Source of the DNA: Streptomyces sp. NBC_00582
Lineage (GTDB): Bacteria > Actinomycetota > Actinomycetes > Streptomycetales > Streptomycetaceae
Direction of reading: 5' to 3'
Length of the DNA: 64,000 nt
Assembly (NCBI RefSeq): GCF_036345155.1
Contig: NZ_CP107772.1
Coordinates: 4,526,001-4,590,000 of the forward strand
In this document: piece by piece, positions 33,726-51,435 of the stretch
Layout: every line of letters starts with the position of its first letter
How positions within the stretch are numbered: position 1 is the first letter of the stretch
Notes under the pieces: generated by a model
What the model saw: the letters and a program-made list of their open reading frames with translations, nothing else
Databases searched by the model: none
Told to the model about the DNA's origin: nothing
Translations under genes and position numbers: made by a program

Positions 33726-35273
33726 TCAGAAGAGGCCGGTGTCGGTGAAGCGCAGGATCAGCTGGGGTGCTCCGGACAGGACGATGCCGAGGGCGGCGGT
33801 GAGGGTGATCGCGGCGGTGAGCGGGGCGGGGACGCGGTGCTTGACCGTTTCGCCCTCGGTTTCGCCCTCGGGGGCGCGGAACAGCAGAGCCGTCCACTGG
33901 AGGTAGTAGTACAGGGCGATCACGACGTTGACGGCCATGAGGACGGCGAGCCAGCCCAGGCCCGCGTCGACGGCCGCCGAGAAGACGGTGACCTTCGCGA
34001 AGAGCCCGATGATGCCCGGCGGCAGTCCGGCCAGGCAGAGCAGGAAGAAGGCCAGGAGGAGTGCGGAGAGGGGGTTGCGGGCGTAGAGGCCCCGGTAGTC
34101 CGTGAGGCGGTTCTGCGGGCTCGTACGGCCCACCAGGGCGGCCACGGCGAAGGCGCCGAGGTTCACGGCGGCGTACATGAGGGCGTAGGCGACGGTGGAG
34201 CCGATGGCGTGCTCGGCGTCGTCGGTGTACGCGGCGGCGGCGATCGGTACGAGGAGGTAGCCGGCCTGTCCGACGGAGGACCAGGCGAGCAGGCGTACGG
34301 CGCTGTACGCGCGCGTGGCCTGTTGGCGGAGGGCGCCGACGTTGCCGACGGTCATGGTGAGGGCGGCCAGCGCGGCCAGGGCGGGGCCCCAGACGTCGGC
34401 GTAGGAGGGCAGGCCGACGACCGTGACGAGGATGAGGCCGGAGAAGCCGACGGCCTTGCCGACGACGGACAGATAGGCGGCGATCGGCAGGGGGGCGCCG
34501 ACGTAGGTGTCGGGGACCCAGAAGTGGAAGGGGACGGCGGCCGTCTTGAAGGCGAAGCCGACGAGGGTGAGGACGACGCCGGTCTGGGCGAGGGTGTCGA
34601 GTCGGCCGTCGACGTGCTGGATGCGGTCGGCGACCTGGGTGAGGTAGAGGGTGCCGGTCGTGGCGTAGAGGAAGCTGATGCCCATCAGGCTGACGGCGGT
34701 GGCGGTGACCGACGACAGGAAGAACTTCAGGGCGGCCTCGGCGGACCTGCGGTCGCCGTGGCGGATGCCGACGAGGGCGAACGCGGGCAGGGAGGCGACC
34801 TCCAGGGCGACGACGAGGGTGGCGAGGTCGCGGGAGGCGGGCAGCAGGGCGGCGCCTGCGGCGGAGGACAGCAGCAGGAACCAGAACTCGCCTTCGGGGA
34901 GTCTGCCGCGCGCGTCCTTCAGGACGGTGACCGACAGGAGGGCGGCCAGCAGGGCTCCGCCGAGGACCAGGAACTGGATGACGAGGGTGAAGCGGTCGGC
35001 GGTGTAGCTGCACGCGTCCGGGTCGGCGGTCAGACAGAAGGTGGAGCGGTCGCCGTCGAGGAGGGGCAGCAGGAGGGCGGTGGAGGCGGCGAGTCCGGCG
35101 ACGGAGAGCCAGCCGAGGAGCGGCTTGCGCGCGTCGGCGACGAACAGGTCGGCGACCAGGACGACGAGGGCGACGACCGCCGCGAGCGTGGGCGGGGCGA
35201 TCGCGAGCCAGTCGACGGACTGGACCAGTGACGCGGCCAGGGGCTGGGCAAGGAGCTGGGCCGGGGAGCTCAT
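33726..35273 (-). CDS. nuoN: NADH-quinone oxidoreductase subunit N-like proton channel
   Basis: Antiporter-type membrane subunit, 515 residues, about 14 helices. The conserved [23 protein letters not shown] carries the TM7-8 lysine and HxW motif. [19 protein letters not shown] is the TM12 lysine region. The ATG (35271-35273) overlaps the nuoM stop as ATGA. It is the last gene of the ten-gene operon. Confidence 0.93.
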
Positions 35274-36844
35274 CGGGTGCCTCCTGCGAGGAGCTGCTGC
35301 ACGGCCGGGTCGGTCAGGCCGAGGAGGGCCTTCGGCCACAGGCCGGCTACGACGGTGAGGGCGACGAGCGGGGTCCAGGCCGCGAACTCGTACGACTGGA
35401 CGTCGGTGAGCTTCGGCGTGTCCTGCGGGAGGGCGCCCATGCAGACGCGGCGGACCACGACGAGCAGGTAAGCGGCCGTGAGCAGGGTGCCGAAGGCGGC
35501 GATCGCGGTGAAGGTGAGGAAGGCCGGGCGGCTGAGGTCGGCGGCCGGGTCGAACGCGCCGAACATGGCTAGCATCTCGCCCCAGAATCCGGCGAGGCCG
35601 GGCAGGCCCAGGGAGGCGACGGCGGCGAAGGCGAGCAGTCCGCCGAGGCGGGGTGCCTTGCCGTAGAGCGCGGCGCCGGTCTGTTCGGCGAGGGCGTCCA
35701 GGTCGGTGGTGCCGGTGCGGTCCTTCAGGGCGCCGACGAGGAAGAACAGCAGGCCGGTGATGAGGCCGTGGGCGATGTTGGCGAACAGGGCGCCGTTCAC
35801 GCCGGTGGGGGTGGTGGACGCGATGCCGAGCAGGACGAAGCCCATGTGGCCGACGGAGGAGTAGGCGATGAGCCGCTTGAGATCGCCCTTGGCGCCCTGC
35901 TTGGCGAGGGCCAGGCAGGCGAGGGATCCGTAGATGATCCCGACGACGGCGAAGGCGGCGAGGTAGGGCGCGAAGGTGTGGAAGCCGTCGGGTGCGATCG
36001 GGAGGAGGATCCGGACGAACCCGTACGTACCCATCTTCAGCAGGACGCCGGCGAGCAGGACGGAGCCGACGGTCGGGGCGGCGGTGTGGGCGTCGGGCAG
36101 CCAGCTGTGCAGGGGCCACATCGGGGTCTTGACGGCGAGCCCGATCCCGATCGTCAGAACCGCGATGACCTGCACGGATGTGCTGAGCGACCGGCCGTTG
36201 TCAGTGGCGAGTGCGACCATGTCGAAGGTGCCCGCCTTGATTCCGATCAGGAGCAGGCCGAGCAGCATGACCACGGATCCGAGCAGCGTGAACAGGATGA
36301 ACTTCGTCGCCGCCCGGGCCCGGCCCTCGCCGCCCCAGCGGGCGATGAGGAAGTACATCGGGATGAGGACCGTCTCGAAGGCGAGGAAGAACAGCAGCAG
36401 GTCGAGGACGGCGAAGGTGGCGAGGGTGCCGGACTCGAGGACGAGCAGCAGTGCGACGAAGGCCTTGGGGGTCGGCCCCGAAGGCATCTTGAAGTACGAG
36501 TAGAGCGCGCAGAGGAAGGTCAGCAGCGCGGTCAGGACCACGAGGGGGAGGGAGATGCCGTCGATGCCCAGGTGGATGCGCACGTCGAGTGCCGGGATCC
36601 AGCTGATGTCCGTGCTGGCCTGCATCTTCGACGGGTGGTCGTGGTCGAAGCCCAGTGCGAGGACGATCGCGGCGGCGAGGATCACGCCGGTCACCGTGAC
36701 GCCGTGCCGGAGCACGGCCTGCTCGGGTGACTTCCCCTTCAGCCCCGGCGGGGCGGGCAGGAGAGCGGCGGCGGCGCCGAGGAGCGGGCCGACGACGACG
36801 AACGCCAGAAGGAACTGCATCACGGACTCGTTGATATCGATCAC
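35270..36844 (-). CDS. nuoM: NADH-quinone oxidoreductase subunit M-like proton channel
   Basis: 524 residues, about 14 helices. The key acidic residue lies in [23 protein letters not shown], and the TM7-8 segment in [37 protein letters not shown] matches TM12. The GTG start (36842-36844) lies six bases after the nuoL stop; an ATG at codon 9 is an alternative. Pumps protons in complex I. Confidence 0.93.
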
Positions 36845-36850
36845 GCCTGC

Positions 36851-38845
36851 TCACGCTCCCGAGGCGACGAGGAGGACGGCGACCGCCAGGACGACGGTGC
36901 CGGCGAGCAGCGCGCTCACATAGGTCTGGACGTTGCCGGTCTGGGCGCGCCGTACGGCCGCGCCGAGCCAGCGGGGCAGGGCGCCCGCGCCGCGTACGTA
37001 GGTGTCGACGACCTCGCGGTCGAGGAACCGGACGAGGCTCGCGCCGCCCTGGACGGGGCGGACGAACAGCGCCGAGTACACGGCGTCGAGGTGGAAGCCG
37101 GCGGCGGCGTGGCGGTGCAGCGGGCCGAGCAGGAGCCGTCCGGGGTCCGCCGGGTCGGGCGCGGAGGCCACGTCGCCGTAGGCGGGCTCGTGGGTCGCGA
37201 TGGCCTCGGCCTCGACCTGGGCGGCGTCGCCCTCGGGGTGTGCGGCGACCGCGCCCAGGGGGGCGACGGCCGCCAGCGCCCGGAGGTGGCGCCAGGCGGC
37301 GTACGCGACGAGTGCGCCGGCCAGGGCGACCCCCGTGCCGAGCACGGAGGTGGTGACGGTCGGGGCGAGGTCGTTGCCGTCGAACCAGCCGGGGAGCGTG
37401 CGGTAGGCGAGTGCGCCGAGGCCCAGGGACGGGACGGCGAGGACCCACAGCACGACGGTCATGGTCAGCGGCTGGCGGCCGTGGTCGGGGGCCTCGGCGC
37501 CCCGGCCGTAAAAGGCCAGCAGCCACAGCCGGGTGGCATAGGCGGCGGTGAGGAGGGCGGTGATCAGTCCGGCGATCAGGATCAGCCAGCCGGCGGCGCC
37601 GGGGGCGTGCTCGGTGTGGCCGGTGGTGACGTGCTCGGCGGCGCCGAGGACGGACTCCTTGGAGAAGAAGCCGCTGAACGGCGGGATCGCGGCGAGCGCG
37701 AGGAGCGCCACGGTCATCGTCCAGTAGGCGTCGGGGATGCGTTCGCGCAGCCGGCTCATCCGGGACATGGCGGCGAGCGAGTTGGTGCCGGCGGCGTGGA
37801 TGATCACGCCGGCGGCGAGGAACAGCAGCGCTTTGAAGGCGCCGTGCGAGAGGAGGTGGAAGACGGCGGCCGAGCGGTCGCCGACGGCGAGGGCGCCGGT
37901 CATGTAGCCGAGCTGGCCGATCGTCGAGTAGGCGAGGACGCGTTTGATGTCGTCCTGCGCGAGCGCCGCGAGGCCGGAGCCGACCATGGTGACGGCGGCC
38001 ATCACGGCGAGGACGACCATCGCGGCCTGGGAGGCCTCGAAGACCGGGAGGAGCCGGGCGATGAAGTAGACACCGGCGGCGACCATCGTCGCGGCGTGGA
38101 TCAGCGCGGAGACGGGGGTGGGGCCGGCCATCGCGTCGGGGAGCCAGGTGTGCAGCGGGAACTGCGCGGACTTGCCGGCGACGCCCGCGAGGAGCAGCAG
38201 GGCGATGACGGTGGGGTGGTCGAGCCCGCCGTGGGCGACGGCGTCGAGGATCTTCGTGATCTCGAAGGAGCCGGCGTCGGTGGCGAGGGCGAACAGGCCG
38301 ATGAGGAAGGGGACGTCGCCGAGCTTGGTGACCAGGAAGGCCTTGAGGGAGGCGGCGCGGGCCTCGGGGGTCTCCCAGTAGTGGCCGACGAGGAAGTAGG
38401 AGCAGATGCCCATGACCTCCCAGCCGACCAGCAGCACGATCAGGTCGCCGGTGTAGACGACCAGGAACATCGCGGAGGTGAAGAGGGAGACGAGCGCGGC
38501 GTACGACGGGTAGCGCGGGTCCTCGCGGAGGTAGCCGGTCGAGTAGATCTGCACACAGGTGGCGACCGTGCCGACCAGGACGGCGACCAGGGCGGCGAAG
38601 CCGTCGATGTACAGGGAGAGCTCGATCGGGATCGAGCCGGTGGGGGTGAGTTCGGTGGCCGCGGTGAGGGCGGCGTCACCGCCCTGGCGTACGGCGACGA
38701 CGGCGGCGAGGACGAGGGAGGTGAGGGTGGGCAGGACGGCGAGGGGGCGGACGAATCCGGGGGCGTTGCGTCCGAGGAGCAGGCCGGCCACCGCGCCCAG
38801 GAAGGGAAGGAGGGGGACGAGGACGGCGAGGGTGGTCGTGGTCAC
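36851..38845 (-). CDS. nuoL: NADH-quinone oxidoreductase subunit L-like proton channel
   Basis: 664 residues with the NuoL signatures [39 protein letters not shown] and [16 protein letters not shown]. The long C-terminal region matches the lateral helix HL with its anchor, down to the last helix ([16 protein letters not shown]). Length is normal. The GTG start overlaps the nuoK stop (GTGA). Confidence 0.94.
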
Positions 38846-39219
38846 GCGGTGGCCTCAGCCTTCTCGGTGCCCGGCCCGGTCTCGGGGGTGTCGGTGTCGT
38901 GGCCCTCGGCGGTGTCGCGGAGCCGGTCGATGTCCGAGGTGCCGCGAGCCCGGTACACGGCGAGGACGATGGCCAGGCCGATGCCGATCTCGGCGGCGGC
39001 GATGGCGATGGTGAACAGGGTCAGGGCCTGCCCGGAGTGCAGGGTCTCCTCGGCGGCGCGGCTGAGCCAGACGTCGAAGGCGACGAGGTTGAGGTTGACG
39101 GCGTTGAGCATCAGCTCGACCGACATCAGGACCAGGATCGCGTTGCGACGGGCGAGGACGCCGTAGAGGCCGGTGCAGAAGAGGAGGGCGGCGAGGACGG
39201 CGGGATAGGCGAGGTGCAT
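38842..39219 (-). CDS. nuoK: NADH-quinone oxidoreductase subunit K
   Basis: 125 residues, three helices. The conserved membrane glutamates are in [12 protein letters not shown] and [14 protein letters not shown] hydrophilic tail of about 35 residues ([15 protein letters not shown]) extends beyond the usual ~100-residue length. The ATG overlaps the nuoJ stop by one base (TGATG). Confidence 0.94.
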
Positions 39220-39902
39220 CAGCGGGCGCCTTCCTGCTCGGCCGAGGTGCCGGGAATTTTCTCGCCACTTTCTGTGACCGATGAGGAACTCCTGGTGACG
39301 CCCCGGGCGTTCACGGGGGGAGAGCTCGCATCGGGCTCCGCCTTCGCCTTGCGGGACAGGACGATCGCGCCGACCAGGGCCGCGAGGAGGAGGACGGAGA
39401 GGGCCTCGAAGGGAAGGACCCAGTTCTGGAAGAGGCTCGCTCCGGTGACCTCGGTGGAGCCGGCGGCGGGGCCGTCCAGGTCGATCCAGGTGGTGCGGAA
39501 GGCGTCGACGACCACCCAGACGAGCGCGGCGGCCGCGGCGACGGCGACCGTGAGGGCGGCCCAGCGGTTGCCGGAGTCGGCGTCCGGGGACCGGCCGATG
39601 GGGGCCTTGGTGAGCATCAGACCGAAGAGGAGGAGGACGACGACGGAACCGACGTAGATGAGGACCTGCACCCAGGCGATGAACTCCGCGGTGAGCAGAA
39701 GGTACTCGACGGCGAGGCCGCCGAGGGCGACCACCAGCCACAGGGCGGCGTGGACCAGTTGCCGGGTGGTGACGGTGACGAGGGCGGCACCCAAGGTGGC
39801 CAGGCCCACGAGGACGAAGGCGATCTCCACTCCGGTCGGGGAGAGGAAGCCGTGCGGTGCGGCGGCCAGGGCCGCGGTGGCGACGGAGGAGGCGGGGCTC
39901 AC
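39219..39902 (-). CDS. nuoJ: NADH-quinone oxidoreductase subunit J
   Basis: 227 residues from GTG 39900-39902, which overlaps the nuoI stop (GTGA). Five helices are seen. [20 protein letters not shown], with the pi-bulge TM3 pattern and following [14 protein letters not shown], is diagnostic. A charged C-terminal tail of about 40 residues is present. Confidence 0.93.
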
Positions 39903-40504
39903 GACTCTCCTCCCTGGGGACCTGCCGGATCGACGGGCTCGGCGGGCTGGGCGGGCTCGGCGGGATCGGTGGGCTGGGCCTGGGCGGCGGCCAGCTTCTC
40001 CGCCGTCTTGCGGGCGGCGGCGATCTCCTTCGGCTCCTCGGCGGCGGGGTCGAGGGCGGGCGGGGCCGGAACCGTCCACATCCACTCGCGGAGCTTGTCC
40101 CGCTCGTGGGTGAGCTCACGGATGTCGGTCTCGGCGTACTCGAACTCCGGGGACCAGAACAGGGCGTCGAAAGGACAGACCTCGATGCAGATACCGCAGT
40201 ACATGCACAGGGAGAAGTCGATGGCGAAGCGGTCGAGGACGTTGCGGCTGCGCTCACGGCCGCCGGGGGCGGCGGGCGGGACGGTCTCCTTGTGGGAGTC
40301 GATGTAGATGCACCAGTCGGGGCACTCACGGGCGCAGAGCATGCAGACCGTGCAGTTCTCCTCGAAGAGACCGATCACGCCCCGGGTGCGGGGCGGGAGC
40401 TCCGGCTGGGCGTCCGGGTACTGCTCGGTGACGGACTTCCTCGTCATCGTGCGCAGGGTGACGGCCAGGCCCTTGGCGAGGCCGGAGCCAGGAATGGGGG
40501 CCAC
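39899..40504 (-). CDS. nuoI: NADH-quinone oxidoreductase subunit I, two [4Fe-4S] clusters
   Basis: 201 residues. Two ferredoxin-type motifs, [12 protein letters not shown] and [12 protein letters not shown], hold clusters N6a and N6b. In canonical complex I these carry electrons from NuoG to NuoB; here no NuoG is encoded, so they are the likely entry point from a soluble donor. An Ala/Pro-rich tail of about 50 residues follows. The GTG start overlaps the nuoH stop by one base. Confidence 0.94.
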
Positions 40505-41472
40505 TAGGAGATCACCACCTTGACGACGCCGGTGAGGGCGATCTGGGCGAGAGAGAGGGGGACGAGGAGGGTCCAGGAGAGTTTCTGGAGCTGGTCCTCG
40601 CGCAGCCGGGGATAGGTGACGCGCAGCCAGATGACGACGAAGGCGAGGACGGCCGTCTTCAGCAGGGTCCACACCCAGCCGAGGCCGTCGGCACCCCAGG
40701 GGCCGTGCCAGCCGCCCAGGAAGAGGACGGTGGTCAGGCCGCACAGGACGACGATCCCGGCGTACTCGGCGAGGAGGAAGAGGGCGAACCGCAGACCGGT
40801 GTACTCGGTGTACGCGCCGAAGATGATCTCCGAGTCGGCGACGGGCATGTCGAACGGCGGGCGCTGCAGTTCGGCGAGGCCGGCGACGAAGAAGACGATC
40901 GCGCCGACGATCTGCCAGGGCAGCCACCACCACTCGAAGGCGTCGACGATGCCGGGCAGGGAGACCGTCCCGGCCGCCATCGCCACCGAGGCGGCGGTGA
41001 GCAGCATCGGGAGTTCGTAGGCGAGGAGCTGGGCGGCGGTGCGCAGACCGCCGAGGAGGGAGAACTTGTTGGCGCTGGCCCAGCCGGCCATGAGGGAGCC
41101 GAGCACACCGACGCCCATCACGGCGAGGACGAAGAACACACCGGCGTCCAGGGCCTGGCCGACGGCGCCCTCGCCGGGGCCGATCGGGATGGCGAGGAGG
41201 ACGAGGAGGTAGGGCAGGAGGGCGACGGCGGGGGCGAGCTGGAAGATACGGCGGTCCGCGCCGGCGGGGACCACGTCCTCCTTCTGCGCGAACTTCACGC
41301 CGTCCGCGATGAGCTGGGCCCAGCCGTGGAAGCCGCCCGCGTACATCGGTCCGAGGCGGCCCTGCATATGGGCCATCACCTTGTGCTCGGTCTGACCGAC
41401 GATCAGGGGGAAGGTGAGGAAGACGACGAAGACGAGCAGGAGTCGCAGGGTGACGTCCACTGCGTCGTTCAC
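40504..41472 (-). CDS. nuoH: NADH-quinone oxidoreductase subunit H
   Basis: 322 residues, about eight helices. The quinone-site loops [21 protein letters not shown] and [17 protein letters not shown] are conserved, including the ERPPFD-like acidic loop (here QRPPFD) and [18 protein letters not shown]. NuoH links the peripheral arm to the membrane arm. The GTG overlaps the nuoC stop (GTGA). Confidence 0.94.
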
Positions 41473-43202
41473 TGCGGGCCTCCTGACGGGTTCTCGGGCT
41501 CGGGGGGTTCGGGGTGGGCCTCGGGCGCGCGTTCGGGCACGGATTCGGGCTGGGTCGCTTGCTCGGGCACGGATTCGGGCTGGGTCGCTTGCTCGGGCAC
41601 GGATTCGGGCTGGGTCGCTTGCTCGGGCACGGATTCGGGCTGGGTCGCTTGCTCGGGCACAGCCGTCGGTTTCGCGTCCGGGGCGGTGGTGCCCGACGGC
41701 TCGGATGCGGGGGCCTGCTCCCGCTCCTGCTTCGGCTCCCGGCCCTTCACCGGCTCCGGCTTCGGCTCGCGCTCCCTCTCCGGCTCCAGCTTCGGCTCGC
41801 GCTCCCTCTCCGGCTCCTGGTCCCGCTCCTTGCGGGCGCGCTCCGCTTCCGGCTCGTCGAAGGCCGGGCGGGCGTGGTGCCAGGGAGCGTCGGAGCTGCG
41901 GGGGGTCCGGGCGGGGCGCGGTTCGGGGGCCGGGGGCTGGGTGCGCTGGGAAGCCGAGCCCTCGGAGGCGGTACGGGCGCGGCGGGGGCCGGACGGGGGG
42001 CGTCCGGTCACCGGGGCCGGGGGCGAGGTCGGGGCCGTGTCGGCGACGCTGCCTGTAGCCGCGCCTGCCTCGCCGGCGCCTTCCGTGCCGGTGCCTTCCG
42101 TCCCCATGCCTTCCGTGCCGGTGCCTTCCGTCCCCATGCCTGCCGTGCCGGTGTCCGCCGTGCTGTTCGTGGCCTGCGGCGCGTCGGTTCCCTGGGGGGT
42201 TGGCCTTCCCGCTGCTTCCTGCGGGGCCGTTGTGGCTTCAGGGGTTTGGGGGGCCTCGGGGCGCTGGGAGGCCGAGCCCTGGCTTGCGGTTCTTGATCGG
42301 CGTGCCGTCGGCGCGGGCGGGGATGTCTCCGAGGCCGCACCGACGGCCGAGGCGGGGGTTTCCGGGGCCGGCTGGCCGGCGGCCGGGGCGGGAGTTTCCC
42401 GGGACGGCTGGCCGGCGGCCGGGGTTTCCGGGGCCGGCTGGCCGGCGGCCGGGGCGGGAGTTTCCCGGGCCGGCTGGCCGGCGGCCGGGGTTTCCGGGGC
42501 TGTCTGGCTGGCGGAGCCCTGGGCTGCCGTGCGGGTGCGGCGGGCCGGGCGGTCGCCGGTGGTGGCTCGGGTCGGGCGGTCGCCTGCGGCGCGGGCCCCC
42601 GCTGCCCGGGCCGGGCGGGCCGGGGCGGGCGGGAGTTGGCCCTTGAGGGGGCCCCAGTCGTTGGGGTCGGGGACGCCGGGGGGCAGCATCTGGCGGCGCT
42701 TGGGGCCGCCGTGCTCGGATTCGCCGGGTTCCTTGGCGCCGGGCCAGGCCTTGGCGACCCGGGCCGCGAGGACGAAGTCCTTGCGGAGGGGGTGGCCTTC
42801 GAAGGTCTCGGGAAGGAGGAGGTGGTGCAGGAAGGGGTGTCCCTCGAAGGCGACGCCGAACATCTCGTGGGTCTCGCGCTCGTGCCAGGCGGCGCCCGCG
42901 TAGACGTCGACGGCGGAGGCGAGGGCCGGGGACTCGTGCGGGACGGTCGTGCGCAGGAGCAGACGGCGGACCGGGCCGAGGGCGACGACGTGGGCGGAGA
43001 CACGGAAACCGGTGCCCGGTTCGTCGACGGCGCTCAGCCAGTCGAAGTAGGTGCAGGAGAGTTCGTCGCGGGCGGTGCGCAGGGCGGTGGTCCAGGACGC
43101 GGGCGGGACGTCGACGGTCAGGACGTCGTAGGACTCCTCGGCCGTGGCGTCCGTGCCGAAGAGGTCCTCGACGGGGGCCGGCAGCCAACCGATCGTGGTC
43201 AT
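41469..43202 (-). CDS. nuoC: NADH-quinone oxidoreductase subunit C with a long repetitive C-terminal tail
   Basis: 577 residues against about 200-250 for typical NuoC. Residues 1-190 are the 30-kDa subunit, including [20 protein letters not shown] and [13 protein letters not shown]. From about 195 on the chain is low-complexity Pro/Ala/Gln/Glu/Thr, with repeats of AAGQPA.ETPA, GTEG and SAS-Q blocks. A charged [10 protein letters not shown] stretch and four exact decapeptide repeats ([10 protein letters not shown] type) follow near the end. The tail contains no NuoD sequence. The ATG overlaps the nuoB stop. The tail is probably disordered and of unknown role. Confidence 0.92.
41533..41652 (-). 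repeat. Tandem 30-bp repeat, four copies, inside nuoC
   Basis: Copies start at 41533, 41563, 41593 and 41623 and look identical base for base; an 8-base partial copy follows at 41653. The unit is ten codons, so copy number can change without frameshift. Confidence 0.95.
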
Positions 43203-43837
43203 CCCGCGTTCCCCTCTGCGGTGGGCGGCTGAGCGGCCGGCGGCTTGACCAGGTCGCTCTGCAGGGCGGCGGCCGACGGACGGTGGGTGCCGTAGCGCTC
43301 GTGCAGGGACTCCCGGGCGATCTTCTCCTGGAGCTTGAGGATGCCCTGGAGGAGGGCTTCGGGGCGGGGCGGGCAGCCGGGGACGTAGACGTCGACGGGG
43401 ATGATCTGGTCGACGCCCTTCGTCACGGAGTAGGAGTCCCAGTAGGGGCCGCCGCAGTTGCTGCAGGCGCCGAAGGAGATGACGTACTTGGGCTCGGGCA
43501 TCTGCTCGTACAGGCGCTTCACGGCCGGGGCCATCTTGTCCGTGACCGTGCCGGAGACGACCATCAGGTCGGCCTGGCGGGGGCCCGGGGCGAAGGGGAT
43601 GACGCCGAGGCGGATGAAGTCGTGGCGGGCCATCGACGCGGCGATGAACTCGATGGCGCAGCAGGCGAGGCCGAAGTTGAAGACCCAGAGCGAGTAGCGG
43701 CGGCCCCAGTTGAGGACGACCTTCATGGGCTCGGGGGCGAGACGGGCGAGGGCACCCAGGCGCTTCGGCTCCGGGAGGAGAACGGGTGCGGAGGCGGTCG
43801 TTTCGGCGGAAGCGGCCGTCTCTGGGGTCACGTCCAT
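43199..43837 (-). CDS. nuoB: NADH-quinone oxidoreductase subunit B, cluster N2
   Basis: 212 residues from ATG 43835-43837. The N2 ligands are visible: tandem cysteines in [10 protein letters not shown], then [10 protein letters not shown] and [12 protein letters not shown]2 normally reduces quinone at the NuoB-NuoD interface; no NuoD is encoded here. N- and C-terminal extensions are short and Pro/Ala-rich. The start overlaps nuoA by ten bases. Confidence 0.95.
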
Positions 43838-44223
43838 GTCAGGACGCCCTTCTTGTATGCGTACAGCAGGCCGACGGCGAGGAAGCCGAGGAAGATGAAC
43901 ATCTCCACGAGGGTCGTGGCGCCGTAGCCGGGGGCGGCGAAGACCGTCGCCCAGGGGAACAGGAAGATCGAGTCGACGGCGAAGATGACGTAGAGGAAGG
44001 CGTAGACGTAGTAGCGGACCTGGGTGTGGGCCCAGCCCTCGCCGACGGGGTCGACGCCGCACTCGTACGTCAGGAGTTTCTCGGGGGTCGGCACCACGGG
44101 GCGCAGCAGGCGTCCCGCGCCGAAGGCGACAGCCACGAACAGCACACCGATGACGGCGAGCAGTCCGACGACCGAATAGGACCGGAAGTAGTCCGCCGCG
44201 ATCTCGACGGTCGGTTCCCGCAC
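43828..44223 (-). CDS. nuoA: NADH-quinone oxidoreductase subunit A
   Basis: 131 residues from GTG 44221-44223, with a purine-rich GAGGGGAC upstream. Three helices are seen. The conserved loop [20 protein letters not shown] and [20 protein letters not shown] are typical. It is the first gene of the nuo operon and diverges from the first sensor kinase. Confidence 0.93.
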
Positions 44224-44302
44224 GTCCGTCCCCTCGCTCCCTGACCTCAGCCTCTTCGGCTTCTTCGGCCACTCGGGCCTCTTCGACGATCTGTACGCAC
44301 GG

Positions 44303-44331
44303 AGTCTAGGCCCTGATAAAGGGACGGTAAG
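44303..44331 (-). promoter_or_regulatory. Candidate promoter of the nuo operon
   Basis: On the minus strand TAGACT (44303-44308) is preceded at 17 bases by CTTACC (44326-44331). The -10 is good and the -35 is partial, which would fit a regulated promoter. It lies in the 209-base divergent region shared with the sensor kinase. Confidence 0.4.
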
Positions 44332-44432
44332 CAGGCCGTCGCGCCTTGGAGCGTGGGACGGGGGTTTTCCCCAGGGAGCGGGGGCGGGGAACCTCATGGC
44401 GCGGGGGCGTGCGGCGCGGCAGGCTAGCCCAT

Positions 44433-45617
44433 ATGACCACTTCCCACCAGCCCGACGGCGGGCGGCTCGACGGTGAGGTGCCGCCGGTGCGGCCCGCTCT
44501 CGATGTGCAGACATGGAAGGAGATCGCGCATCTCCTGGCGAATCTGCCGATGTCGTTGTTCGGGTTCGTCTATGTGATGACGGTGTTGTTCACGGGCGCC
44601 TCGCTGACGATCACCGTGGTCGGGTTGCCGCTGCTGGCGCTCGGTCTGGCGGGGGCGCGGGTGGTGGGCCGGTTCGAGCGGGCGCGGGCGCGGTTGCTGC
44701 TCGGGGTGCGGGTCGACGAGCCGAGCCCGCTGCCGTGGCGCCGGGCGGGCGGGCCGGTGGCGCAGATGTGGCTGGCGTTGAAGGATCCGGTGGCCTGGCG
44801 GACGGTGCTGTACGACTTCGTCCGGCTGCCGTGGGGCATCCTCACGTTCAGCGTCGTGGTCCCCGCCCTGTTCGTGCTGTGGCCGGTCCTGCCGTATCTG
44901 GCGCGGGGGCTGACCAATGTGGACCGGGCGATGGTGCGGGCGCTGTTGTCGCCGTCCGACGAGCTGGAGCGGCGGATCGCCGAGCTGGAGTCGGACCGGG
45001 GGGTCGTGGTGGACACGGCGGCGGCGGATCTGCGGCGGATCGAGCGGGATCTGCACGACGGGGCGCAGGCGCGGCTGGTGAATCTGGCGATGGGGCTGGG
45101 GCTGGCGAAGGAGAAGTTGCAGGAGGGGCAGGCGGACGACGCGGTGGCGGCGATGGTGGAGGAGGCGCACGGCGAGGTGAAGCTGGCGCTGCAGGAGCTG
45201 CGGGATCTGGCGCGGGGCATCCACCCCGCGGTGCTGACGGACCGCGGGCTCGATGCCGCGCTGTCGGCGGTGGCTTCGCGGTGCACGGTGCCGGTGAAGG
45301 TGACCGTCGATCTGGTGTCCAGACCGGCGCCGGCCATCGAGGGGATCGCCTACTTCACCGTGTCGGAGCTGTTGCAGAACATCAGCAAGCACAGCGGGGC
45401 GCGGTCGGCCTCGGTGGATGTGTGGCGGACGGACGAACGGCTGCTCATCCAGGTCGGGGACGACGGCCGGGGCGGGGCGCGGCTCGACGCGGGGACGGGG
45501 ATGCGGGGGCTCGCGGAGCGGCTGGACGCCGTCGACGGGGTGTTCGTGGTGGAGTCGCCGGTGGGGGGTCCTACGACGGTGACGGCGGAGCTGCCGTGGC
45601 GGGAGCCGGAGCGGTAG
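44433..45617 (+). CDS. Membrane sensor histidine kinase (NarL/DesK type)
   Basis: 394 residues. Four hydrophobic segments span about residues 35-75 and 130-160. A HisKA_3 box follows, RRIERDLHDGAQARLVNLAM with H208 the predicted phosphoacceptor. The HATPase domain has TVSELLQNISKHS, VGDDGRGGARL and GMRGLAERL. No extracellular sensor domain is apparent, so it probably senses within the membrane. It is the first of two tandem paralogues with a response regulator downstream. Confidence 0.92.
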   Translation: MTTSHQPDGGRLDGEVPPVRPALDVQTWKEIAHLLANLPMSLFGFVYVMTVLFTGASLTITVVGLPLLALGLAGARVVGRFERARARLLLGVRVDEPSPLPWRRAGGPVAQMWLALKDPVAWRTVLYDFVRLPWGILTFSVVVPALFVLWPVLPYLARGLTNVDRAMVRALLSPSDELERRIAELESDRGVVVDTAAADLRRIERDLHDGAQARLVNLAMGLGLAKEKLQEGQADDAVAAMVEEAHGEVKLALQELRDLARGIHPAVLTDRGLDAALSAVASRCTVPVKVTVDLVSRPAPAIEGIAYFTVSELLQNISKHSGARSASVDVWRTDERLLIQVGDDGRGGARLDAGTGMRGLAERLDAVDGVFVVESPVGGPTTVTAELPWREPER

Positions 45618-45771
45618 CCGGGGCGGTAGCGCCGAGGTAGGGAAAACCCCCCTTTCGACAGACCGACGGACTGGATGGCCCGCGGGGGCGGTGCCGGGGA
45701 GGGTGGAGGCGGGTCACAGCGGCTGCGCGATGAGCGGGGCGTGTGGAGACGAGTAGAAACGGACGGCGCCG

Positions 45772-47142
45772 ATGGCCACGCAGTATGGGCGGTACGGGAC
45801 GTATGGGCGGGACGAGGGCGAGTACGCGTACGGGGCCCGTGAGGGTCGACGGCGCCGGATGCCCGCCGTGCTGCTCGAGCCGGTGAGCGGGCGGCACTGG
45901 CGTGAGCTCGCCTATGTGCTGCTCGGTTTCCCGGTGAGTGTCACGCTGTTCGTGTTCACCGTGACCATGCTGTCGGTCGGGGCGGGGCTGCTGGTGACGT
46001 TCCTCGGCATTCCGGTGCTGGCGGCGGGCCTGGCGGCCTGCCGGGGCTTCGGGGTGGTGGAACGGGCGAGGGCGCGGGGGCTGCTGGGGCTGGAGGTGCG
46101 GGATCCGGAGCCGTTGCGGGTGCGGGGGCGGGACGGGCGTGCCGGGGTGATGGCGTGGATGGCGGCCGTGCTGCGGAGCGGGAGCTCGTGGCGGCATGCC
46201 CTGTTCGTGCTGGTGCAGTTTCCGTGGGCGGTGTTCTCGTTCTGCGTGACGCTCACGGTGTGGGTGTTCGGCTGGACGATGCTGACGTATCCGCTGTGGT
46301 TCTGGGTGTTCCCGATGTACGCGGGGCAGGACGGCCTTCAGCTGTACGGCGACCAGCACCACCGGGTGTACCTGGACAACCCCTTCGAGATCACCGTCAC
46401 GGCGTCGGTGGGGCTGCTCGTCACGCTGGCGACGCCGTGGATCGTGCGGGCGCTGACGACGGTGGACCGGCTGCTGGTGCACGGGCTGCTCGGGCCGTCG
46501 CGGCTGGCGTCACGGGTGGTGGAGCTGGAGTCGGACCGGGGGGTGGTGGTGGACACGGCGGCGGCGGATCTGCGGCGGATCGAGCGGGATCTGCACGACG
46601 GGGCGCAGGCGCGGCTGGTGGCGCTGGCGATGGATCTGGGGCTGGCGAAGGAGAGGCTGCGGGAGGATCCGCGGGGGGCGGCGCGGATGGTGGACGAGGC
46701 GCACGGCGAGGTGAAGACGGCGCTGCAGGAGCTGCGGGATCTGGCGCGGGGGATTCATCCCGCGGTGCTGACCGACCGGGGGCTGGACGCGGCGTTGTCG
46801 GCGGTGGCTTCGCGGTGCACGGTGCCGGTGCGGGTGGAGGTGGATCTGGGGGCGCGGCCGGTGGCCGCGATCGAGGGGATCGCTTATTTCACGGTGTCGG
46901 AGTTGTTGCAGAACGTGAGCAAGCACAGCCGGGCTCGGTCGGCGTCGGTGGATGTGTGGCGGGTGGAGGATCGGTTGATGCTGCAGGTGGTGGATGACGG
47001 GGTGGGTGGCGCGGAGGCCTCGGGCGGGTCCGGGCTGGCGGGGCTGGCGGAGCGGTTGGACGCGGTGGACGGGATTCTGGTGGTGGATTCGCCGGTCGGG
47101 GGGCCCACGCGGGTGACGGCGGAGCTGCCCTGGCGGGCGTGA
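45772..47142 (+). CDS. Second membrane sensor histidine kinase, paralogue of the preceding gene
   Basis: 456 residues. The architecture matches its neighbour but with a Tyr/Gly-rich N-terminus and longer membrane part; H275 lies in RRIERDLHDGAQARLVALAM. The loop between helices (MYAGQDGLQLYGDQHHRVYL) is longer than in the first kinase. From the linker to the HATPase domain the two genes are nearly identical in DNA. Both probably signal to the single downstream regulator. Confidence 0.92.
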   Translation: MATQYGRYGTYGRDEGEYAYGAREGRRRRMPAVLLEPVSGRHWRELAYVLLGFPVSVTLFVFTVTMLSVGAGLLVTFLGIPVLAAGLAACRGFGVVERARARGLLGLEVRDPEPLRVRGRDGRAGVMAWMAAVLRSGSSWRHALFVLVQFPWAVFSFCVTLTVWVFGWTMLTYPLWFWVFPMYAGQDGLQLYGDQHHRVYLDNPFEITVTASVGLLVTLATPWIVRALTTVDRLLVHGLLGPSRLASRVVELESDRGVVVDTAAADLRRIERDLHDGAQARLVALAMDLGLAKERLREDPRGAARMVDEAHGEVKTALQELRDLARGIHPAVLTDRGLDAALSAVASRCTVPVRVEVDLGARPVAAIEGIAYFTVSELLQNVSKHSRARSASVDVWRVEDRLMLQVVDDGVGGAEASGGSGLAGLAERLDAVDGILVVDSPVGGPTRVTAELPWRA

Positions 47143-47228
47143 GGTGCCGGCCCCGCCGCCCGCCGCCCTCGCCCGCCCTCGCCCTGGCGGGCGTGAGGTG
47201 CCGGCCCCGCCGCCCGCCGCCCTCGCCC
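47127..47228 (+). repeat. 54-bp-period direct duplication across the second kinase stop codon
   Basis: A 48-base sequence at 47127-47174 recurs exactly at 47181-47228, duplicating the last coding bases, the stop and the following GC-rich stretch. The remaining spacer to 47496 is C-rich and shows no gene. Confidence 0.9.
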
Positions 47229-47496
47229 TTCCCGTCCTCCAGACGCTCCGCCCCTCGCTCCTCCGCCCCCGCCGAGGGGCACCGCCCCCTGGACCCCCGG
47301 AAGGGCCGCGTCCGGTTCTGTCGGGAAGTCGCACCCCCACCCCGCAGGGCCCTATTCCCGCCCTCGTCCCGGTCTCTTCGCGTCGTCCTCCCCTGGCATC
47401 GGCCCATTGACAGGCACAGAGGGCCCCCTTGCTGGAATGCTGGAGGTGTTCGACTGACGGGTGGACGGCTGGGGGGCCGGGAGCGTGGAGGACAGG

Positions 47497-48156
47497 GTGC
47501 GGGTGGTCATCGCCGAGGACTCGGTGCTGTTGCGGGAGGGGCTGACCCGGTTGCTGACCGACCGGGGGCACGAGGTGGTCGCGGGGGTCGGGGACGCCGA
47601 CGCGTTGGTCAAGACGATCACCGAGCTGCATGACGAGGGGGCGCTGCCGGACGTGGTCGTCGCCGATGTGCGGATGCCGCCCACGCACACCGACGAGGGG
47701 GTGCGGGCCGCCGTACAGCTGAGGAAGGCGCATCCGGGGCTCGGGGTGCTGGTGCTGTCACAGTACGTGGAGGAGAGGTACGCCACCGAACTGCTGGCCG
47801 GTTCGAGTCGCGGGGTGGGGTATCTGCTCAAGGACCGGGTCGCCGAGGTGCGGGAGTTCGTGGACGCCGTGGTGCGGGTGGCCTCCGGGGGGACCGCGCT
47901 CGATCCGGAGGTGGTCGCGCAGCTGCTGGGGCGCAGCAGGAAGCAGGACGTGCTCGCCGCCCTCACCCCGCGTGAGCGGGAGGTGCTGGGGCTGATGGCC
48001 GAGGGGCGGACCAACTCCGCCGTCGCCCGGCAGCTCGTCGTCAGCGACGGGGCCGTGGAGAAGCACGTCAGCAACATCTTCCTGAAGCTGGGGCTCTCGC
48101 CGAGTGACGGGGATCACCGTCGAGTTCTAGCAGTACTCACCTATCTCAATTCATGA
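47497..48156 (+). CDS. NarL/FixJ-family response regulator
   Basis: 219 residues. The receiver domain starts [20 protein letters not shown], with acidic E7/D8, phosphoacceptor D57 in VVVADVRMP, and K108-type lysine in [10 protein letters not shown]. The LuxR-type HTH is [20 protein letters not shown] then [14 protein letters not shown]. The GTG at 47497 has GGAGG five bases upstream; GTG codons 12 and 36 bases earlier are less likely. It is presumably the partner of the two kinases. Targets may include nuoA and korA. Confidence 0.9.
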
Positions 48157-48440
48157 GCGAGTGGCACTGTGGCCCGACGGTGATCCTTGAAGGCGTTGAA
48201 GGTGATCGGACCGCGTCCGGCGTCGTTCCCCGCGTGAACCGGGGAACTCGGTCGGTGCGTCTACCAGGGCGACACCGTGGGGCGGGAAATCATGACAAGT
48301 CGGGGTGCCGGGCCGTCTCGGGGCAGTGACCGTCATACGAACGGCCGAGGGAAGGCGACCCTTACAGACGTAGGGTTGATCCAGGGAGGGCCTTCACGAA
48401 GACCCCTCCGGGACAGCCACCTCGAGGGAGGTCCAGTTCA

Positions 48441-50393
48441 GTGACCAGTCGGGTCAGCAGCGCAACGGGACAGACCGGGCAGGCCGAGCAGGCCGACGGG
48501 ACCGTCGTGGGAGAGCAGCGCAAACCGGGCGCGACGGCGAAGGACGTACGCCGTCTCGACCGGGTGATCATCAGGTTCGCGGGTGACTCGGGTGACGGTA
48601 TGCAGCTCACCGGTGACCGGTTCACCTCGGAGACGGCGTCGTTCGGCAACGATCTGTCCACCCTGCCGAACTTCCCCGCCGAGATCCGCGCGCCCGCCGG
48701 CACGCTGCCCGGCGTCTCCTCGTTCCAGTTGCACTTCGCCGACCACGACATCCTCACCCCGGGCGACGCGCCGAATGTGCTGGTCGCGATGAATCCGGCG
48801 GCCCTGAAGGCGAACATCGCGGATGTGCCGCGCGGGGCGGAGATCATCGTCAACACCGACGAGTTCACCAAGCGTGCGATGCAGAAGGTGGGGTACGCGG
48901 CCTCGCCGCTGGAGGACGGCTCCCTCGACGGCTACCAGCTCCATCCGGTCCCGCTGACCACCCTGACCGTCGAGGCTCTCAAGGAATTCGACCTCACCCG
49001 CAAGGAGGCCGAGCGCAGCAAGAACATGTTCGCGCTCGGCCTCCTTTCGTGGATGTACCACCGGCCCACCGAGGGCACCGAGAAGTTCCTGAGATCGAAG
49101 TTCGCGAAGAAGCCCGACATCGCGGCCGCCAACATCGCCGCCTTCCGCGCCGGGTGGAACTTCGGGGAGACGACCGAGGACTTCGCCGTCAGTTATGAGG
49201 TCGCCCCGGCCGCGAAGGCCTTCCCCGTGGGGACCTACCGGAACATCTCCGGGAACCTGGCGCTCGCGTACGGGCTGGTCACGGCCTCGCGGCAGGCGGA
49301 TCTGCCGCTGTTCCTCGGCTCGTACCCGATCACACCGGCCTCGGACATCCTGCACGAGCTGAGCCGGCACAAGAACTTCGGTGTGCGCACCTTCCAGGCC
49401 GAGGACGAGATCGCCGGCATCGGCGCCGCCCTCGGGGCGGCCTTCGGGGGGTCCCTCGCCGTCACCACGACCTCCGGGCCCGGCGTGGCGCTGAAGTCCG
49501 AGACCATCGGGCTCGCGGTGTCGCTGGAGCTGCCGCTGCTGGTCGTCGACATCCAGCGGGGCGGCCCCTCCACCGGGCTGCCGACCAAGACCGAGCAGGC
49601 GGATCTGCTGCAGGCCATGTACGGGCGCAACGGCGAGGCGCCGGTGCCGGTCGTCGCCCCCCGCACCCCCGCGGACTGCTTCGACGCCGCCCTGGAGGCC
49701 GCGCGGATCGCCCTGGTCTACCGCACCCCCGTCTTCCTGCTCTCCGACGGCTATCTCGCCAACGGTTCCGAGCCGTGGCGGATCCCCGAGCTGGACGAGC
49801 TGCCGGATCTGCGGGTGCAGTTCACGCAGGGCCCGAACCACACCCTGGAGGACGGCACCGAGGTCTTCTGGCCGTACAAGCGGGATCCGCAGACCCTCGC
49901 CCGGCCGTGGGCGATCCCGGGCACCCCGGGGCTAGAACACCGCATCGGCGGCATCGAGAAGGAGGACGGGACCGGGAACATCTCCTACTCCCCCGCCAAC
50001 CACGACTTCATGGTCCGCACCCGCCAGGCCAAGATCGACGGCATCGAGGTCCCGGACCTCCAGGTCGACGATCCCCACCGGGCCACCACGCTCGTCCTGG
50101 GCTGGGGTTCGACGTACGGGCCGATCACCGCCGCCGTACGACGGCTGCGGGCGGCCGGGGAGGCGGTCGCGCAGGCGCATCTGCGGCATCTGAACCCCTT
50201 CCCACGCAACCTGGGCGAGGTGCTGAAGGCCTACGACAAGGTCGTCGTCCCGGAGATGAACCTCGGCCAGCTCGCCACCCTCATCCGGGCGAAGTACCTG
50301 GTCGACGCCCACTCGTACAACCAGGTGAACGGCATGCCGTTCAAGGCGGAGCAGCTCGCCGCGGCGCTCAAGGAGGCCATCCATGACCACTGA
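48441..50393 (+). CDS. korA: 2-oxoacid:ferredoxin oxidoreductase, alpha (gamma-alpha fused) subunit
   Basis: 650 residues from GTG 48441, with GGGAGGTCC upstream. Residues 40-230 form the gamma domain (RFAGDSGDGMQLTGDRFTSE). From about 270 the alpha domain has SYPITPASDILHELSRHK and AEDEIAGIGAALGAAFGGS. This is the KorA type of 2-oxoglutarate ferredoxin oxidoreductase, oxidising 2-oxoglutarate to succinyl-CoA with ferredoxin as acceptor. It is preceded by 284 bases of non-coding DNA after the regulator and overlaps korB. Confidence 0.94.
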   Translation: MTSRVSSATGQTGQAEQADGTVVGEQRKPGATAKDVRRLDRVIIRFAGDSGDGMQLTGDRFTSETASFGNDLSTLPNFPAEIRAPAGTLPGVSSFQLHFADHDILTPGDAPNVLVAMNPAALKANIADVPRGAEIIVNTDEFTKRAMQKVGYAASPLEDGSLDGYQLHPVPLTTLTVEALKEFDLTRKEAERSKNMFALGLLSWMYHRPTEGTEKFLRSKFAKKPDIAAANIAAFRAGWNFGETTEDFAVSYEVAPAAKAFPVGTYRNISGNLALAYGLVTASRQADLPLFLGSYPITPASDILHELSRHKNFGVRTFQAEDEIAGIGAALGAAFGGSLAVTTTSGPGVALKSETIGLAVSLELPLLVVDIQRGGPSTGLPTKTEQADLLQAMYGRNGEAPVPVVAPRTPADCFDAALEAARIALVYRTPVFLLSDGYLANGSEPWRIPELDELPDLRVQFTQGPNHTLEDGTEVFWPYKRDPQTLARPWAIPGTPGLEHRIGGIEKEDGTGNISYSPANHDFMVRTRQAKIDGIEVPDLQVDDPHRATTLVLGWGSTYGPITAAVRRLRAAGEAVAQAHLRHLNPFPRNLGEVLKAYDKVVVPEMNLGQLATLIRAKYLVDAHSYNQVNGMPFKAEQLAAALKEAIHDH

Positions 50394-51435
50394 GCCACTC
50401 TCTCTCGTGCCCAAGGCCGAAGGCCGGCAGTCCATGAAGGACTTCAAGTCGGACCAGGAAGTGCGCTGGTGCCCGGGCTGCGGTGACTACGCGATCCTGG
50501 CGGCCGTCCAGGGCTTCATGCCGGAGCTGGGGCTGGCCAGGGAGAACATCGTCTTCGTCTCCGGCATCGGCTGCTCCTCGCGCTTCCCGTACTACATGAA
50601 CACCTACGGGATGCACTCCATCCACGGGCGGGCCCCCGCGATCGCGACCGGCCTCGCCGCGAGCCGGCGGGACCTGTCCGTGTGGGTGGTCACGGGCGAC
50701 GGGGACGCGCTGTCCATCGGCGGCAACCATCTCATCCATGCCCTGCGCCGGAACGTCAACCTGAAGATCCTGCTCTTCAACAACCGGATCTACGGCCTGA
50801 CCAAGGGCCAGTACTCCCCCACCTCCGAGGTCGGCAAGATCACCAAGTCGACGCCGATGGGGTCGCTGGACGCGCCGTTCAACCCGGTGTCGCTGGCGAT
50901 CGGCGCCGAGGCGTCCTTCGTCGCCCGCACCATCGACTCCGACCGCAAGCATCTGACGGAGGTGCTCCGGCAGGCCGCCGCCCACCCGGGCACGGCGCTG
51001 ATCGAGATCTACCAGAACTGCAACATCTTCAACGACGGCGCCTTCGACGCGGTCAAGGACAAGCAGCAGGCCGAGGAGGCCGTGATCCGGCTGGAGCACG
51101 GGCAGCCGATCCGGTTCGGCGCCGAGCTGGGCAAGGGTGTCGTACGGGATCCGGCGACCGGTGATCTGCGGGTGGTCGCCGTGACGCCGGAGAACGAGGG
51201 CGAGATCCTGGTCCACGACGCGCACTCCGCGTCCCCGACCACCGCCTTCGCGCTCTCCCGCCTCGCCGATCCGGACACCCTGCACAACACCCCGATCGGT
51301 GTCCTGCGCTCCGTCGAGCGGCCGGTCTACGACACCCAGATGGCCGACCAGCTCGACACGGCCGTCGAACAGCACGGCAAGGGCGATCTGGCCGCGTTGC
51401 TGGCGGGCGGGGACACCTGGACGGTCGTCGGCTGA
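50383..51435 (+). CDS. korB: 2-oxoacid:ferredoxin oxidoreductase, beta (TPP/Fe-S) subunit
   Basis: 350 residues; starts 11 bases inside the end of korA. Cluster ligands C30 and C33 are in VRWCPGCGDYA and C64 in GIGCSSR, with a further Cys in IYQNCNIF. The TPP-binding motif runs TGDGDALSIGGNHLIHALRR. With KorA it forms an oxygen-tolerant enzyme in actinobacteria, so this is likely a TCA-cycle route to reduced ferredoxin. Confidence 0.95.
   Translation: MTTEPLSLVPKAEGRQSMKDFKSDQEVRWCPGCGDYAILAAVQGFMPELGLARENIVFVSGIGCSSRFPYYMNTYGMHSIHGRAPAIATGLAASRRDLSVWVVTGDGDALSIGGNHLIHALRRNVNLKILLFNNRIYGLTKGQYSPTSEVGKITKSTPMGSLDAPFNPVSLAIGAEASFVARTIDSDRKHLTEVLRQAAAHPGTALIEIYQNCNIFNDGAFDAVKDKQQAEEAVIRLEHGQPIRFGAELGKGVVRDPATGDLRVVAVTPENEGEILVHDAHSASPTTAFALSRLADPDTLHNTPIGVLRSVERPVYDTQMADQLDTAVEQHGKGDLAALLAGGDTWTVVG

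Follow-up and report, generated by a model that had tools for sequence, protein, structure and literature searches.

The nuo2 operon of Streptomyces sp. NBC_00582 and its unlinked nuoD2: genes for a probable 11-subunit complex I without NuoEFG

We analysed a 64,000-nucleotide stretch of the Streptomyces sp. NBC_00582 chromosome (contig NZ_CP107772.1, positions 4,526,001 to 4,590,000; hereafter the window), which contains a set of complex I genes, nuo2, on the minus strand between window positions 33726 and 44223. This operon is composed of ten genes, nuoA2-B2-C2-H2-I2-J2-K2-L2-M2-N2, which are contiguous and mostly overlap by a few bases. Pfam and NCBIfam matches and the translations bear out this arrangement, which had been described in an earlier note made from the letters alone. 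The same note had seen no NuoD, E, F or G here, which is true of the window but not of the genome as a whole: a family search gives no NuoD match in the window, and the NuoD, E, F and G proteins of nuo1, a further nuo operon of the genome, give no window match at E 1e-3 when used as tblastn queries. The ten genes are given below; residue numbers for the NuoL, M and N pump equivalents are those of the Escherichia coli proteins.

33726..35273, minus strand: nuoN2; Proton_antipo_M and TIGR01770 matches; equivalents of E133, K217, K247 and K395 kept
35270..36844, minus strand: nuoM2; TIGR01972, 553.8 bits; equivalents of E144, K234, K265 and E407 kept
36851..38845, minus strand: nuoL2; TIGR01974, 474 bits; equivalents of E144, K229, K342 and K399 kept
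38842..39219, minus strand: nuoK2; PF00420; both membrane Glu residues kept
39219..39905, minus strand: nuoJ2; PF00499
39899..40447, minus strand: nuoI2; Fer4 family matches; two [4Fe-4S] motifs
40504..41472, minus strand: nuoH2; PF00146, 338.5 bits; matches 8e9g_H, E 1.1e-61
41469..43202, minus strand: nuoC2; 30-kDa domain PF00329 (residues 30-148), then a long Pro/Ala/Glu/Thr-rich repetitive tail
43199..43837, minus strand: nuoB2; N2 cysteines kept; SGTVTDK, with Thr at the position of Thermus thermophilus Nqo6-R83
43828..44223, minus strand: nuoA2; PF00507

The cysteines of cluster N2 and the iron-sulfur ligands of NuoI2 are intact, and NuoL2, M2, N2 and K2 retain the charged residues used for proton pumping. 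Identities of 30-51% between its subunits and the corresponding ones of nuo1 mark nuo2 as an old paralogous set. Besides its eight ligand cysteines, NuoI2 has an extra one that is likewise present in relatives (CPDWC in loci L061-L140 and L157-L176) and forms the fifth cysteine of the first cluster motif, CxxCxxCxxxCPDWC. This residue is absent from nuo1 NuoI and occurs in several, not all, 11-subunit operons of other phyla (present in Bacillus, Paenibacillus, SAR202 and Bacteroidetes loci, absent for example in Desulfosporosinus); a role in tuning a cluster or in binding the electron donor is conceivable. The tail of NuoC2 spans about 400 low-complexity residues and is encoded by several tandem arrays, including 30-, 36- and 66-base units (window 41469-42700). 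Its length varies, from 125 residues in another Streptomyces (G147) to mostly fewer than 50 elsewhere, although 5 of the 20 outside-class loci have 161-443 residues, so the tail is probably not catalytic. A NuoD concealed in this open reading frame as a C/D fusion is ruled out, as the tail consists of low-complexity repeats with no NuoD match.

The whole genome contains two NuoD genes by family search. NuoD1 is encoded about 27 kb past the end of the window, inside the nuo1 operon, whose A, C, D, E, F, G and I genes are identified by Pfam, B by translation and H to N by tblastn. The second, nuoD2 (383 residues, P0005), is an orphan gene some 214 kb past the window, and the 20-kb stretch around it gives no further nuo2-type match. 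A genome-wide check proposed in the earlier note therefore returned both of the things it looked for, a further nuo operon and an orphan nuoD. The note had suggested that the complex may borrow NuoD from a full operon or work differently; NuoD is in fact not lost, and borrowing from nuo1 is ruled out by this dedicated NuoD2 together with the arginine/threonine switch described below.

We used NuoD2, NuoH2, KorB, a methyltransferase encoded beside nuoD2, NuoB2 and NuoI2 as queries against 216 genomes of the class and tabulated the resulting lists. NuoI2 and NuoD2 are both found in 87 genomes, NuoI2 only in 5, NuoD2 only in 4 and neither in 120, a table that, like its Fisher value, is descriptive and not a probability, the genomes being related rather than independent. 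The NuoI2 module is thus present in 92 of the 216; across the phylum it is found in 87 of 227 genomes, 11 of them in the class. A dedicated NuoD2 accompanies NuoH2 in 54 of 56 genomes, and NuoH2, I2 and D2 are all found in each of the 18 Streptomyces. Many genomes seemed to have NuoD2 and no nuo2, a reading that was dropped; NuoH2 was the wrong marker, and NuoB2, C2 and I2 are present in those genomes.

Gene order need not be kept for the proteins to form a complex. In all 20 class loci read, nuoD2 is outside the operon, whereas in 18 of 20 loci outside the class it lies between nuoC2 and nuoH2, giving the order A-B-C-D-H to N. The two outside-class operons without nuoD2 (L161 and L170) belong to one family, f49, and perhaps represent an independent relocation or loss. 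A further 19 named loci have D in the operon, 18 of them titled as actinobacteria (including metagenome-assembled genomes of Ilumatobacter and Ferrithrix thermotolerans) and one as an Acidobacteria metagenome-assembled genome (L186). This distribution suggests that the ancestral unit was probably an 11-gene operon from which nuoD2 later moved out in this class.

NuoD2 and NuoB2 also carry a matched pair of residues beside cluster N2. According to the accessible text of PMC8042128, the arginine next to N2 belongs to NuoD in Yarrowia, whereas T. thermophilus carries it in NuoB (Nqo6-R83) and has threonine in NuoD. The same two positions swap arginine and threonine here, and, unlike in those organisms, both versions occur in one genome, one per paralogous complex: NuoD2 has HRGAEK and NuoB2 SGTVTDK, while NuoD1 has HTGIEK and NuoB1 AGRVSQK. 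Counting distinct genomes in which the motif is resolved, arginine is found in NuoD2 in 69 of 69 and threonine in NuoD1 in 13 of 13 (10 of them Streptomyces). NuoB2 has threonine in 75 of 76, the last (G123) being a script artefact whose residue is also threonine, and NuoB1 has arginine in 4 of 4. The reciprocal switch matches NuoD2 to NuoB2.

The most surprising single feature lies at the quinone site of NuoD2. Aligned to T. thermophilus Nqo4, His32, Arg58 and Trp81 of NuoD2 correspond to His38, Thr64 and Tyr87; the histidine is kept and the tyrosine is replaced by tryptophan. This tyrosine is widely regarded as binding the head group of the quinone. The available part of PMC8042128 likewise terms it a headgroup-ligating residue. 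All 69 NuoD2 genomes with a resolved motif have tryptophan here, and all 13 such NuoD1 genomes have tyrosine. Among the named loci, several rows of which are unresolved, 52 NuoD2-type rows combine arginine with tryptophan; the combination of arginine with tyrosine is found in 21, which come from Bacillus, Paenibacillus, Desulfosporosinus, SAR202 Chloroflexi and other phyla; every resolved NuoD of the 11-subunit complexes of other phyla keeps the tyrosine, unlike nuo2. Only L186 has tryptophan under a title that is not actinobacterial; its NuoD shares 78% identity with an Acidimicrobiia-like query, so the Acidobacteria label may be wrong.

A gene for a PF02636 protein, the methyltransferase of the genome searches, adjoins nuoD2 at a distance of about 20 bases. 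Its solved relatives by sequence are COG1565, DUF185 and MidA/NDUFAF7 proteins. A model of the Streptomyces iakyrus ortholog, 84% identical to the protein of this genome, has a mean predicted local distance difference test score (pLDDT) of 91, and its six best fold matches are COG1565, DUF185 or MidA entries at E 2e-17 or better, the next being at 6e-5. The methyltransferase is found in 82 of 91 NuoD2 genomes; in 76 of these 82 it shares a contig with nuoD2, always within 12 kb, in 71 within 5 kb and in 32 within 300 bases. In 5 of the 20 outside-class loci it directly follows nuoN2. The arginine dimethylation associated with this family is reportedly of proteobacterial origin, going by the title of a MidA structure paper. 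In the accessible text of the two sources, NDUFAF7 dimethylates Arg85 of human NDUFS2 (PMC3829151), and the modification is conserved in Paracoccus and absent in E. coli (PMC3750175). The residue equivalent to Arg85 is present in NuoD2 (HRGAEK) and missing in NuoD1 (HTGIEK), and by analogy with the human pair Arg58 of NuoD2 may be methylated. Family, fold and target arginine agree with what PMC3829151 describes in its available part; unlike human NDUFAF7, the protein is actinobacterial, its gene lies near that of its putative substrate, and its activity is a prediction.

Two genomes of one genus that have no nuo2 module (G136 and G224) give weak partial methyltransferase matches, which may stem from another member of the family or from a degraded copy. 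Beside nuoD2, two genes for bacterial PH-domain (bPH_2) proteins are divergent from it (L013, 11072-12954), and relatives of the larger protein lie near nuoD2 in 10 of 21 loci compared. The nuoD2 region of some genomes also contains folate and pantothenate genes.

Within the window, the plus strand opposite nuo2 encodes KorA and KorB, as the earlier note had it; profile matches confirm both identities.

48441..50393, plus strand: korA; 2-oxoacid:ferredoxin oxidoreductase alpha subunit; POR, POR_N and PFOR_II
50383..51435, plus strand: korB; thiamine pyrophosphate-binding beta subunit; TPP_enzyme_C

When korB and nuoI2 are on one contig they are within 16 kb of each other in 50 of 52 genomes, the exceptions being 39 kb (G089) and 1.6 Mb (G153). 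They lie on different contigs in 21 further genomes, including G106 and G254, which have few contigs.

Together, nuo2 and the unlinked nuoD2 appear to encode a complete 11-subunit complex I without NuoEFG, a second proton-pumping enzyme of this organism, to which we assign a probability of roughly three in four. The co-occurrence of NuoD2 with NuoI2 although their genes are unlinked and the order A-B-C-D-H to N outside the class argue for it, as does the inventory: B2, C2 and I2 of the Q-module are in the window and D2 is elsewhere, and the membrane subunits A, H, J, K, L, M and N are all present. The retained cluster ligands and pump residues, the arginine/threonine switch and the methyltransferase near nuoD2 point the same way. 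The earlier description of a complex I lacking NuoEFG is thereby upheld. In the proposed enzyme, electrons would enter NuoI2 from a low-potential carrier, most likely ferredoxin, with KorAB as one source, and would pass through N2 in NuoB2 to menaquinone at the tryptophan-modified site, while the membrane arm would pump protons. The neighbouring methyltransferase would dimethylate Arg58 of NuoD2 during assembly. The operon would once have carried nuoD2 in its usual place and lost it to another site in this class, after which several lineages would have lost the membrane arm.

Several observations weigh against this reading. The acidic loop of NuoH2 near the quinone site is altered, alongside the NuoD2 tryptophan (PVADSE, versus PEAEGE in mycobacterial NuoH, 8e9g_H), and tryptophan at the tyrosine position could mean impaired or different quinone chemistry. 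Among the nine genomes in which NuoI2 or NuoD2 is found without the other (five and four, respectively), six are 70-85% complete (G074, G082, G100, G141, G155 and G166) and one is explained by a contig break (G128); G064 (93% complete) and G248 (94%) are left over. Of the 91 NuoD2 genomes, 9 lack the methyltransferase, which in turn occurs in 7 genomes where NuoD2 is not found, and one of five operon-linked matches (L165) has a stop inside the matched range. Of the 169 KorB-bearing genomes, 89 have no nuo2 module, and KorB is not found in 12 of 92 module genomes, one of which (G075) has korA at a contig end. Joint presence and loss of korAB and the module is therefore not seen, and the separate loss that the earlier note had named as counter-evidence is found in part: korAB is a frequent neighbour of these complex I genes and not a strict partner.

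The module also exists without a membrane arm of its own. All 56 NuoH2 genomes have NuoI2, and 36 of the 92 NuoI2 genomes lack NuoH2; NuoD2 is found in 33 of these 36. We read 35 of the 36 arm-less loci (all but G064; G128, with its contig break, is excluded from the 36), and in 32 of them NuoB2-C2-I2 are contiguous with no own membrane subunit. The other three have B2-C2 and I2 4 kb apart (G219), on two contigs (G076) or separated by a NuoH2 remnant (G089). KorA or KorAB is divergent beside B2-C2-I2 in 19 of the 32 contiguous loci, nuo1-type genes are on the same locus in 18, and one or the other is present in 30. Some arm-less contigs are short (G075 and G118), so that loss of the arm is not certain there. 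The cysteines and the NuoB2 threonine are kept in the arm-less rows read, a few rows being unresolved, and five pairs of arm-less genomes give ratios of nonsynonymous to synonymous polymorphism (pN/pS) of 0.04-0.69, which indicates that the genes are maintained by purifying selection.

In a tree of NuoB, C and I rooted on other phyla, the D-containing operons are basal and the arm-less forms are nested, as one clade of 31 (support 83) and as G219, G089 and G118 separately. The membrane arm was lost about three times or more in this tree, a number made uncertain by weak inner nodes (support 27-66). It appears that in several lineages the arm was lost after nuoD2 had moved out. The remnant in G089 consists of NuoH2 pieces between C2 and I2 (L084, 10924-11226), a membrane-arm loss in progress, and in G252 only korB and korA fragments stand beside the B2-C2-I2 operon (L122, 6645-6997). 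In three arm-less loci no common fourth gene follows nuoI2; a CorA transporter (L087 and L089) or an M48 peptidase (L093) is found there. Four genomes (G071, G079, G089 and G261) have extra weak NuoH-family matches of 97-137 bits that are neither nuo1 nor nuo2 and perhaps belong to group 4 hydrogenase-type complexes.

Where the arm is missing, NuoB2-C2-I2 with D2 may act as an alternative front end for nuo1 by docking on its membrane arm, a serious contender that we place a little below even odds. Contiguity of the three genes, the nuo1-type genes alongside them, the purifying selection and the strong nuo1 NuoH that a NuoH family query returned for 31 of 33 arm-less genomes (none in G118, fragments in G082) all fit such docking. 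A free soluble enzyme would, however, show the same genes, and since nuo1 is widespread in the class in any case, finding it here carries little weight. More tentatively, Actinomycetota could possess a second type of peripheral arm, NuoB2-C2-D2-I2 with the quinone-site tryptophan and a methylated arginine beside N2, as a swappable ferredoxin-fed front end; in Streptomyces and others it would drive a membrane arm of its own, and in many relatives, having lost that arm, it would either dock on nuo1 or act as a KorAB-linked soluble oxidoreductase.

The nature of the electron donor bears on the 11-subunit reading as well. A ferredoxin-like donor is plausible and favoured by the fifth cysteine of NuoI2, the lack of NuoEFG and the absence from the genome of any FpoF-type PF04432 protein. 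KorAB is a plausible, natural candidate by position; its presence in 89 genomes without the module and its apparent absence from 12 with it mean that it cannot be the only donor. The ferredoxin-fed proton pump of the earlier note accordingly fares well on korB linkage, pump residues and iron-sulfur ligands, and less well on korAB, which is often found without nuo2. Actinobacteria make F420, and nuo1 supplies E, F and G in the same genome, so that the nuo2 complex might instead be fed by F420H2 or by NADH through the nuo1 NuoEFG. We consider this unlikely: the outside-class relatives are 11-gene operons with no nuo1 F or G match among those listed (F and G being the queries used), the five-cysteine motif of NuoI2 is that of several 11-subunit operons of other phyla and not of nuo1 NuoI, and the F420H2 route faces the lack of a PF04432 protein.

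A hybrid complex I, in which nuo2 subunits, above all the antiporters, are swapped into the canonical complex and NuoD1 is shared, has been proposed in the accessible text of PMC3765725 and PMC9239103, with a conserved antisense RNA over nuoL2/M2; the location of nuo1 and nuo2 in one chromosome region would suit it. It is improbable in view of the switch, since NuoD1 and NuoB2 both have threonine at the N2 arginine position and would form a pair with no arginine, and in view of the dedicated NuoD2 that accompanies nearly every NuoH2. Mixed assembly is further disfavoured by G186, listed as 100% complete, where at the score thresholds used the single NuoD, NuoH and NuoB matches are all of nuo2 type, so that nuo2 appears to stand alone. 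That nuo2 is a decaying relic of little function, as repeated loss of the arm, the NuoH2 remnant and the korAB fragments might suggest, is very improbable given its presence in all 18 Streptomyces and of the NuoI2 module in 92 class genomes, the pN/pS values, the retained cofactor and pump residues, and its reported expression and regulation in S. coelicolor (PMC3765725, PMC9239103).

The gap between nuoA2 and korA in the window is occupied by a two-component system on the plus strand. Profile matches confirm the two sensor kinases and the regulator noted earlier, which are divergent from nuo2.

44346..45617, plus strand: sensor kinase 1, AbrC1-like by position; PF13796 and HisKA_3; position as for SCO4598 in the available part of PMC9739823
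45772..47142, plus strand: sensor kinase 2, AbrC2-like by position; Sensor and HisKA_3; 56% identical to kinase 1
47461..48156, plus strand: LuxR-type response regulator, AbrC3-like by position; Response_reg and GerE

GAF-type kinases can sense oxygen or redox state. One distant relative, G066, has a GAF-domain histidine kinase and a LuxR-type regulator between korA and nuoA2 (L070, 6730-8895), a pair possibly informative about nuo2 regulation; three family f17 loci have a polysaccharide deacetylase in this gap. The window and this distant relative thus both have a kinase-regulator pair in the gap, of a different type in each. The window-type kinases have no tblastn match in 20 other nuo2 loci, one of them from Streptomyces (G147); 14 of these loci, among them G066 and the three of family f17, contain both nuoA2 and korA. 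The case for regulation of nuo2 by the adjacent kinases is weak. AbrC1/C2/C3 are divergent beside nuo2 in S. coelicolor (PMC9739823), and the window genes are likened to SCO4596-98 by their position. The AbrC system is linked to antibiotic regulation, and the AbrC3 targets named in the accessible text of PMC4428217 are antibiotic regulators. Rex acts at nuoA1-N1 according to the available part of PMC5355995; no Rex operator within 3 mismatches was found in the window.

Cyanobacterial NDH-1 is ferredoxin-dependent. Like nuo2 it is without NuoEFG, and its structure (6hum) is the best solved match for NuoL2, N2 and K2, whereas NuoH2 and NuoM2 match other complexes best. The 11-subunit complex I of Bacillus/Paenibacillus, SAR202 Chloroflexi and others shares with nuo2 the order A-B-C-D-H to N, the NuoD arginine and the NuoB threonine; nuoD2 is unlinked in this class, unlike in those operons. 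The operon and the separated nuoD2 are already known: in the accessible texts, a nuo2 cluster SCO4599-4608 with unlinked nuoD2 is described in Streptomyces (PMC3765725), likewise in S. ambofaciens (PMC8388888), and the operon here is the same, with the same AbrC1/C2/C3 neighbours (PMC9739823). These accessible texts list no nuoC2. According to the available part of PMC9239103, C, D, E, F, G and L are all missing from SCO4599-4608, whose role is unclear and which might form a hybrid with nuo1; the operon analysed here does have C2 and L2, and D2 is assigned to its complex. In the accessible part of the open-access literature we found no description of the tryptophan, the arginine/threonine switch, the methyltransferase link or the membrane-arm-less form, nor of a B-C-D-I module in actinobacteria.

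An oddity of a model genus, of function 'unclear' in the accessible text of PMC9239103, thus becomes a defined enzyme with testable parts. The presence of two complexes with opposite arginine/threonine placement in one cell, and of a methyltransferase beside the arginine version, provides a genetic handle on the role of the modification. If the ferredoxin link is true, it would constitute a low-potential route into respiration in aerobic actinobacteria. The arm-less form raises the question of whether complex I modules can be exchanged. The natural, widely conserved change from tyrosine to tryptophan bears on how quinone reduction is coupled to pumping in complex I, and if a swappable front end with this site proves true, complex I would be able to couple without its supposedly essential tyrosine.

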